Part shown: positions 43,838-46,826 of the stretch, piece after piece | How positions within the stretch are numbered: the stretch's first letter is position 1 | Layout of the letters: each line of letters begins with the position of its first letter | Source of the DNA: an uncultured Rubrobacteraceae bacterium | Lineage (GTDB): Bacteria > Actinomycetota > Rubrobacteria > Rubrobacterales > Rubrobacteraceae | DNA: 64,000 bases | NCBI GenBank assembly: GCA_902806085.1 | Contig: CADCVH010000098.1 | Coordinates: 1-64,000 of the forward strand | Reading direction: 5' to 3' | Made by a program: the position numbers and the translations under genes | The notes under the pieces: generated by a model | What the model saw: only the letters and a program-made list of their open reading frames with translations | Told to the model about the DNA's origin: nothing | Database searches by the model: none

Positions 43838-44346
43838 ACCGGGGTGCCGGGCTTCCCTCTAGCCGGCGGCCCTCGCCCGTAAAGGGCCGCCATCCCGAGG
43901 TGAGGGCGGGGCCTGCGAGTCGATCGGGCCCCTCTCACCAGGAGACGATGTCCTCGCCGCGGGAGAGGAGCCAGGCGACCGCAAGCCGCCGTTACCGATG
44001 GTTGTTCTTATCGTTACCTGATCGTCACCCGGTCTCCGCATGGTGCCAACCACAGAGCAACCGGGGAGTCCGGGGGCCAAGACGAAAGGGGCAGGCGATG
44101 AGACGGACGGCGATCTTGGTTATGACGGGGACGGCAGCAACGTACTTACCGTCCACAGAGACCACCACTCGGCATCTTGCCTACCACCGGGAGCATCTCG
44201 CCGTAGTCCCGATGGCCCCCTGAACGCTAGCTTTAGCGTAGACGCTCTGGCAGCGGCACAGGTGTTCCTCGTCGATTACCCGTCGCCGTGGGCTTTCGAC
44301 AGCCCCGGTCCACTGGCCGGGTAATGGGCCCCAGCCTCCAGAGATC

Positions 44347-44772
44347 TCACCGCCCCGCCGCAGCCTCCACGTCCTTGACGAGGACGCGCCCACCGGAGCC
44401 GGTGCCCTCCACGCCCGTTGGGTCCACGCCCAACTCCTTCGCCCGACGTTTCGCTGCGTCGGTTACCTCAGGTTCTTCCTGATGGTCCTGCCGGGCCTCC
44501 GTCGAGGCTTCCGGGACGTCGCCGTCGCCGCCTTCCGCCGTCTCGGCGGTCACGAAGCCCCCGTTCTCGTCGTGGGGGTGGTCTTCGGCCTCGTCTGGGC
44601 CGGCGTCGGGCGTCGCCAGCCGTTCTTCGAGGAGGGCCAAGACCTCTCGGTTCGATTCTGCCTGGTCCTCGCGCGCCTGCTCCACGGCCCTGGCGAGCTT
44701 CTCGTTCTCTTTGCGGAGCTTCTTTAGTTCTTTGGCAAGCTCATTTACGGCCTTGTCCATCTTTTTCGCCAC
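44347..44772 (-). CDS. coiled-coil protein with C-terminal E3-binding (PSBD-like) domain
   Basis: N-terminal coiled coil VNELAKELKKLRKENEKLARAVEQ; C-terminal VTDAAKRRAKELGVDPTGVEGTGSGGRVLVKDVEAAAGR. Confidence 0.8.
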   Translation of the reverse strand: MAKKMDKAVNELAKELKKLRKENEKLARAVEQAREDQAESNREVLALLEERLATPDAGPDEAEDHPHDENGGFVTAETAEGGDGDVPEASTEARQDHQEEPEVTDAAKRRAKELGVDPTGVEGTGSGGRVLVKDVEAAAGR

Positions 44773-44835
44773 GCCCTCAACCGCCTCTCGTAGACCGGCA
44801 ACGCCCGGAAGGATGACACAGCCGGGGCGCCGGGG

Positions 44836-45423
44836 CTACAGCACGCTCGGCAGGTACGAGGGCCTGGACTTCTCGAAGGCTTCGAGGTCCTCCTCGTGGG
44901 TGAGCGTCAACCCGATGTCGTCGAGGCCGTTGAGCAGGCGGTAGCGGGCGAAGTTGTCGAAGGCGAAGGGCTCCTCGAAGCCGGGGGCCTTCACGACGCG
45001 GCCTTCGAGGTCGACGAAGACCTCCGTCTCGGGGTCCTCGCGAGCCTGTTCTAGCAGCTCCTCTACGGCGTCCTCGGAGAGTTCCACGGCCAGCAGGCCG
45101 ATCTTGGCGCAGTTGTTTTTGAAGATGTCGGCGAAGGACGGGGCTATGACGGCGCCGAAGCCGTAGTCCTGGATGGCCCAGGGGGCGTGCTCCCGGCTGG
45201 AGCCGCTCCCGAAGTTCTGGCCGGCGAGGAGGACGACCGCGCCCTCGTGCTCGGGCTTGTTGAGGACGAAGTCCGGGTCCTCGCGCCAGGCGGAGAACAG
45301 GAACTGGCCGAAGCCGGTCCGCTCTATGCGCTTGAGGGCGTCGCTAGGCACGATCTGGTCGGTATCGACGTCGTCCCACCCGAGCGGCAACGCCTTGCCT
45401 TCTACCTTCTTTACGGCCTCCAT
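44836..45423 (-). CDS. leuD: 3-isopropylmalate dehydratase small subunit
   Basis: DDVDTDQIVPSDALKRIERTGFG, NFGSGSSREHAPWAIQDYGFGAVIAPSFADIFKNNCAKIGLL. Confidence 0.95.
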   Translation of the reverse strand: MEAVKKVEGKALPLGWDDVDTDQIVPSDALKRIERTGFGQFLFSAWREDPDFVLNKPEHEGAVVLLAGQNFGSGSSREHAPWAIQDYGFGAVIAPSFADIFKNNCAKIGLLAVELSEDAVEELLEQAREDPETEVFVDLEGRVVKAPGFEEPFAFDNFARYRLLNGLDDIGLTLTHEEDLEAFEKSRPSYLPSVL

Positions 45424-46826
45424 TAGAGCACCTCCACGGGTACGCCGAGTTCGGACGGGGAGGCGAACCTTCCCATTACGGCCGTCGCCGCGGCCACGGC
45501 CGGGCTGACCAGGTGTGTCCTGCCGCCCTTGCCCTGGCGTCCCTCGAAGTTGCGGTTGCTCGTCGAGGCGCAGCGCTCGCCGGGCTGCAGGATGTCCGGG
45601 TTCATCCCGAGGCACATCGAACACCCCGCGTTGCGCCAGTCGAAGCCGGCCTGCGTGAAGACCTCCATGAGGCCCTCCTCCTCGGCCTGCTTTTTGACGC
45701 GCATCGAGCCAGGCACGACCATCGCCCTGATGCCCTCTTTCACCTTCTGGCCCTCCAGCACCTTCGCGGCGGCGCGCAGGTCCTCTATGCGGGCGTTTGT
45801 GCAGGAGCCGAGGAAGACGGTGTCCACCTCTATCTCCCTGATCGGGGTCCCGGGTTCGAGGTCCATGTACTTGAGCGCGCGCCGGTGGCCGTCGTTCTGG
45901 GGCTCCGGGACGGCGTCGTCGAGGCCGACGGTCTGGGCCGGGTTCGTCCCCCAGGAGACGTAGGGCGCGAGCTCCTCGGCCCGAATCACGACCTCCTTGT
46001 CGTACCCGGCGCCCTCGTCGGTGCGCAAAGCCTTCCACTCCTCGACGGCCCGGTCCCACTCCTCGCCCTTCGGGGCGTACTCGCGGCCCTCGAGGTACTC
46101 GAAGGTGGTCTCGTCGGGGGCGACGAGGCCGGCCCTCGCACCCCCCTCTATGGACATGTTGCAGACGGTCATGCGGCCCTCCATCGAGAGCGAGCGGACC
46201 GCCTCGCCCCGGTACTCGATGACGTGCCCGACCCCGCCGCCCGTGCCGATCCTGTTCAGGATGCCGAGCATGAGGTCCTTGGCCGTCACGTCCGCCGGCA
46301 GCTCGCCCTCGACGGTTACCGCCATCGTCTTCGGGCGGCTCTGGGGGAGGGTCTGGGTCGCCAGGACGTGCTCGACCTCGCTCGTGCCGATGCCGAACGC
46401 CAATGCTCCGAAAGCGCCGTGGGTCGCCGTGTGGGAGTCGCCGCAGACGATGACGAGGCCCGGCTGGGTGAGGCCCGTCTCGGGGCCTATGATGTGGACG
46501 ATGCCCTGGCCGAGGGCGCCCCACTTGTTGAGTGTGACGCCGAACTCCTCGCAGTTGTTCTCGAGCGCCTCCATCTGCTTTTTGGAGACCTCGTCCTCTA
46601 TGGGCATACCTACGGGCGTGGTCGGCACGTTGTGGTCCATGGTGGCGTAGGTGAGGTCGGGCCTACGCACCTTGCGCCCCGCGAGCCTCAGGCCCTCAAA
46701 GGCCTGCGGGCTCGTCACCTCGTGGACGAGGTGCAGGTCCACGTAGAGCAGGTCGGGCTCCCCTTCCGCGCTCCTGACGACGTGCTTTTCCCATACTTTC
46801 TCTACGAGCGTCTTCGGCCTGTCCAT
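45423..46826 (-). CDS. leuC: 3-isopropylmalate dehydratase large subunit
   Basis: [68 protein letters not shown]. Confidence 0.97.

Follow-up and report, generated by a model that had tools for sequence, protein, structure and literature searches.

Gene organization and neighbourhood

The window, that is the whole 64-kb stretch of DNA analysed, carries on the minus strand, from 44772 down to 44347, a gene for a 141-aa protein. This had been described in the initial annotation as a free-standing coiled coil followed by an E3-binding domain, similar to the peripheral subunit-binding domain (PSBD) of 2-oxo-acid dehydrogenase E2 enzymes. The ORF has been confirmed, and the locus is organized as follows.

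44836..46826, minus strand: co-directional leuC and leuD, upstream of the PSBD gene (sequence and ORFs); leuC spans 45423-46826; the end of leuD, 44836, and the GTG of the PSBD gene are 63 bp apart
44347..44772, minus strand: gene for the coiled-coil/PSBD protein, 141 aa, GTG start at 44772 (ORF list, dN/dS)
44614..44769, minus strand: N-terminal helix, residues 2-53 (AlphaFold pLDDT 91-98; heptad test)
44467..44613, minus strand: acidic disordered linker, residues 54-102 (pLDDT below 50 at 59-99; charge -16 over 53-102)
44353..44466, minus strand: PSBD-like module, residues 103-140, Pfam match 106-136 (PF02817, fold match to 1w85_I, log-odds -26.8)

Both leu genes have been named by sequence resemblance rather than by a profile search, and any functional link to the PSBD gene would be putative. 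The order leuC-leuD-PSBD gene is repeated in genomes G004 and G006, and the PSBD gene directly follows leuCD in three same-genus genomes. In other genomes it lies near genes resembling those for LLM-type oxidoreductases, VOC and DUF427 proteins and peroxiredoxins. A link to leucine synthesis was considered and rejected, because direct adjacency to leuD is limited to the three genomes of the same genus. As far as can be judged from gene calls made by a simple codon-position script, and hence approximate, the neighbourhood gives no pointer to function. Scanning of the region 44200-45000 for promoters and terminators returned nothing.

The PSBD gene of G006 and G004 faces a convergent, unidentified ORF of 298-348 aa (L043:10004-10900, L044:4621-5667). 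In the window, nothing comparable appears in the ORF list for 43860-44340, and this ORF may therefore have been lost there.

A subunit-binding domain without an E2 enzyme

The stretch in which the initial annotation recognised a PSBD corresponds to residues 103-141; a profile search finding no significant PSBD match would, according to that annotation, have refuted the claim. The claim survives this check. The E3_binding profile PF02817 scores 38.2 bits (E=1.6e-9) over residues 106-136, the curated cut-off being 23.7, and the domain is recovered independently in a six-frame search of the genome (40.9 bits). Top phmmer matches in the PDB are PSBDs as well (1w4j, E=1.8e-5). AlphaFold predicts a helix at residues 2-53, disorder at 59-99, and a C-terminal two-helix domain at 103-140 with pLDDT of about 85. 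When the model is compared to the PDB by Foldseek, the 35 matches comprise PSBD chains and two integrative models of the E2 type; the isolated domain fitting the C-terminal module best is chain I of 1w85 (TM 0.86, 1.1 A). Pfam and NCBIfam searches detected neither a lipoyl domain, all 141 aa being accounted for in the AlphaFold model, nor an acyltransferase or acyltransferase-like core domain, and no phasin family is among their matches. Profile, fold and domain searches thus bear out the proposed anatomy, a PSBD devoid of its E2 enzyme and placed behind a coiled coil. No other PSBD is encoded in the 64 kb.

Full-length orthologues have been identified in 9 of 40 Rubrobacteraceae genomes, a low figure to which the incompleteness of many other assemblies contributes. 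A wide gap in E-values (1e-41 to 5e-20) sets them clearly apart from paralogous modules. They too start V/L/M-[AG]-K-K, and those of two same-genus genomes are about 80% identical to the window protein. Comparison with the same-genus orthologues reveals purifying selection (dN 0.12, dS 0.52, dN/dS about 0.22), third-position changes being dominant; with high probability, then, the gene is functional. An E2 fragment or pseudogene was discarded in view of this selection, and because nine genomes have full-length orthologues. In a named genome collection, relatives aligning over most of the protein belong to Rubrobacter or related actinobacterial MAGs; more distant matches in Planctomycetes, Chloroflexi and archaea (L061, L062, L063, L065) were set aside as ordinary lipoyl-bearing E2s. 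Phage and plasmid collections gave no match, so a mobile-element origin is not supported.

The coil and the linker

Residues M5, V9, L12, L16, L19, N23, L26 and V30 occupy the a/d heptad positions of the N-terminal helix. The pattern is centred in the nine orthologues on V-L-[LV]-[LA]-N-[LF]-[ILV], the first residue being I in one and L in another; N23 and L26 are invariant, the core Asn being kept in 9/9. According to a simple in-house scoring scheme, based on 500 shuffles per protein, the heptad score was reached by no shuffle of the window protein, and by no more than 3 of 500 in each of the nine orthologues. The heptad coil is more than chance. In leucine zippers, a buried Asn at the a position is typical of parallel dimers. 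On the basis of heptads and core Asn the 141-aa protein is therefore most simply a dimer, in which each of the two PSBDs would hang from an acidic tether some 50 residues long.

Expansion of PSBDs in Rubrobacteraceae

PSBDs are unusually abundant in this family. Their median number per genome is 7 (range 2-15) in the 40 Rubrobacteraceae and 1 (range 0-5) in 109 other Actinomycetota; a few of the counts may be too low, as the candidates scored per genome were capped in part of the survey. The genome to which the window belongs has 12 PF02817 domains, and only three reside in E2s. The nine others are distributed among PhaE (one), ribosomal protein L20 (two), phasin-like proteins (three, in two proteins), a protein marked by the motif LDIPMLN (one), a protein of contig C20 (one) and the 141-aa protein. 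The hosts found outside the window are encoded at the following loci.

L041:8711-9496 (G000:C10:118710-119495): L20 with a 150-residue acidic C-terminal tail carrying two PSBD-like modules
L042:7729-9885 (G000:C79): polyhydroxyalkanoate (PHA) synthase subunit PhaE, PhaR-like according to NCBIfam, whose C-terminus bears a PSBD-like module; class III phaC lies downstream
L039:9851-18490 (G000:C51): Ala/Gln-rich phasin- or apolipoprotein-like proteins with one or two modules; LDIPMLN protein with one module; ParA-like ATPase
L040:9145-9528 (G000:C20): 127-aa protein ending in a PSBD-like module; a long ORF (1097 aa, product unidentified) is adjacent

The surplus domains are thus found at the C-terminus of unrelated proteins (L20, PhaE, two phasin-like families, an uncharacterised protein, and the coiled-coil protein). 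The same hosts recur across relatives, with 1-4 modules per protein. The module is present in all the PhaE proteins legible in full (13/13, from 13 genomes of the family), and no PhaE orthologue was detected at E<=1e-8 outside Rubrobacteraceae in a sample of 150 genomes. Clusters similar to that of contig C51 occur in G006, G012, G030 and other genomes; the phasin-like annotation is sub-threshold, as Phasin_2 is matched with E=1e-4, under the Pfam cut-off. Extended L20 proteins carry one to three modules in relatives, but several other genomes of the family have an L20 of normal length: L20 frames measure 197-311 aa in the window's genome, G012, G019 and G024, and 123-135 aa in G009, G011, G016, G018, G021 and G027. 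The PSBD is an expanded module, shared by proteins of the whole Rubrobacteraceae family. A protein of more than 880 aa, starting with MAKKPSVHVVAREDGW, hosts four PSBD-like modules (L028:1-2652, G001:C29).

A remodelled subfamily

The loose modules can be told apart from the PSBDs of E2 enzymes. In a set including 46 E2 PSBDs, from Rubrobacteraceae and other Actinomycetota, and 87 loose modules, leave-one-out separation was complete (0/133 misclassified). Pro is found at module position 3 in 46/46 E2 PSBDs and 2/87 loose modules, a hydrophobic residue at position 8 in 46/46 and 1/87, V or I at position 30 in 1/46 and 81/87, respectively. The window module has D3, R8 and V30, and its log-odds of -26.8 places it with the loose subfamily. 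The module plausibly derives from an E2 PSBD, yet forms a separate, repurposed subfamily which has spread within Rubrobacteraceae.

Loose modules might be neutral passengers, small stable domains which duplicate and are tolerated as solubility or stability caps with no specific partner. Functionally unrelated hosts, the variable copy number, a patchy presence, and differences in charge and surface residues between host families are all in line with such drift. Still, residues not needed by E2 PSBDs are conserved in the subfamily (K/R/E at position 8, V/I at 30, E at 11, D at 15), selection acts across the gene of the 141-aa protein, and no legible PhaE lacks the module. We consider neutral spreading unlikely.

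Binding of PSBDs to E3 depends on charged side chains of helix 1 (PMC9974300, PMC6270654). The initial annotation had proposed that the protein may be an adaptor for E1/E3-type enzymes. In such a model the module would dock E3 (dihydrolipoyl dehydrogenase) or E1, and the dimer would tether enzymes onto, or keep them off, a 2-oxo-acid dehydrogenase complex. The residue numbering used here, and the role of Arg135 and Arg139, are those of the B. stearothermophilus E2. The PSBD fold is preserved, and in the window copy the zipper positions 135 and 139 are both Lys and Arg occupies 156; most PhaE and phasin-like A modules retain Arg135, and R or K stands at this position in 46/46 E2 PSBDs. A stand-alone E3 adaptor, MRPS36, is moreover known in eukaryotes (PMC9974300). 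Among the nine orthologues, in contrast, the helix-1 hot-spot is not conserved, being K in four, E in two, A in two and Q in one, and on L20 usually E. An acidic or small residue prevails at position 139, and both Pro132 and the helix-1 hydrophobic residue have been lost. Variation of the Arg135 equivalent among orthologues implies that canonical docking is not what this branch conserves. The window copy, judging from its two Lys residues, might still bind E3. Canonical E3/E1 docking is possible, yet improbable, and less likely than a linker built on a repurposed PSBD.

The same annotation had alternatively envisaged a DNA-associated use of the fold. A nucleoid-type linker interacting with DNA or RNA would suit a small helical fold, the Lys-rich extreme N-terminus, and the finding that one of the sister hosts is a ribosomal protein. 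However, the features of a basic nucleic-acid-binding domain are missing: the protein has a pI of 4.66, the charge of the linker is -16, and that of the module is about +1 in the window, on average -2.3 in the orthologues, and -6.3 on L20. Association with nucleic acids is accordingly very unlikely.

A proposed bivalent linker

The picture that we tentatively favour, at somewhat less than even chances, is that of a dimeric, bivalent linker whose repurposed PSBDs bind a partner common to PHA, phasin-like and L20 proteins. The leucine-zipper-like coil would dimerise, and the dimer would present two C-terminal modules on long, acidic, flexible tethers. Each module may dock onto a partner surface which is also recognised by the other module-bearing proteins, and the linker could thereby cross-link, or recruit, the members of a single assembly inside the cell, for which the best candidate is the PHA granule/phasin network. 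In support, the subfamily is also represented on L20, on phasin-like proteins and on PhaE, which is encoded beside class III PhaC; against the proposal, none of the genes neighbouring that of the 141-aa protein is a PHA gene, the phasin annotations are sub-threshold, and orthologues occur in only 9 of 40 genomes, in part owing to incomplete assemblies. A role restricted to granules accommodates L20 poorly, the main weak point of the granule hypothesis. In two Rubrobacter species PHA is reported to account for as much as 50% of dry mass (PMC8146576).

More speculatively, and with lower probability, the E2 docking domain may have become a general recruitment tag. According to this hypothesis, one hub protein or surface would recognise the modules on PHA synthase, phasin-like proteins, L20 and coiled-coil linkers, and organise an undescribed ribosome/PHA-granule assembly or condensate.

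Relation to known systems

The PSBD is a textbook domain, to our knowledge known almost only from E2 and E3BP. Searches of the open-access literature, which leave most subscription journals outside, revealed no report of a PSBD expansion in Rubrobacteraceae, or of its C-terminal use on L20, PhaE, phasin-like or coiled-coil proteins; no relevant paper joining phasins with an E3-binding domain was retrieved from it, nor one for PF02817. The passages of the Rubrobacter PHA study dealing with PhaE, PhaR and phasins term the identification of PhaE problematic, and do not mention PSBDs (PMC8146576). While the fold is already known, its promiscuous use at the C-terminus of these hosts is apparently new. 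Here the face of the PSBD has been remodelled in one lineage, and the proteins to which it is fused include a universal ribosomal protein and the synthase by which PHA-accumulating extremophiles make their bioplastic. Identification of its partner would reveal how such a domain switches its docking target, and could offer a new handle on the organization of PHA granules. In the meantime, Rubrobacter proteins annotated as "E3-binding domain" need not be dehydrogenase components.

The 141-aa protein resembles the PSBDs of E2 enzymes (PF02817; 1w85, 1ebd, 1w4j) in profile, predicted fold, GTG..GR loop and Arg156 equivalent. It differs from E2s because it has no lipoyl or catalytic domain, and from their PSBDs because Pro132 is missing, Leu/Tyr of helix 1 are replaced by Arg/Lys, Lys159 by Val, and Arg135 is not conserved among orthologues. 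MRPS36/KGD4, the eukaryotic E3 adaptor of OGDHC, illustrates the same idea, a small stand-alone protein replacing or mimicking PSBD docking, but is not a PSBD, prokaryotic orthologues are absent (PMC9974300), and E3 binding by the 141-aa protein is only putative. The mammalian E3BP is likewise a PSBD-bearing protein outside E2 proper, yet keeps a lipoyl and an inactive catalytic domain, neither of which is found here. The PhaE and phasin-like proteins of Rubrobacter have a C-terminal module belonging to the same subfamily; their N-terminal parts are PhaE/PhaR-like or phasin-like, in place of the short, Asn-containing zipper of the 141-aa protein.
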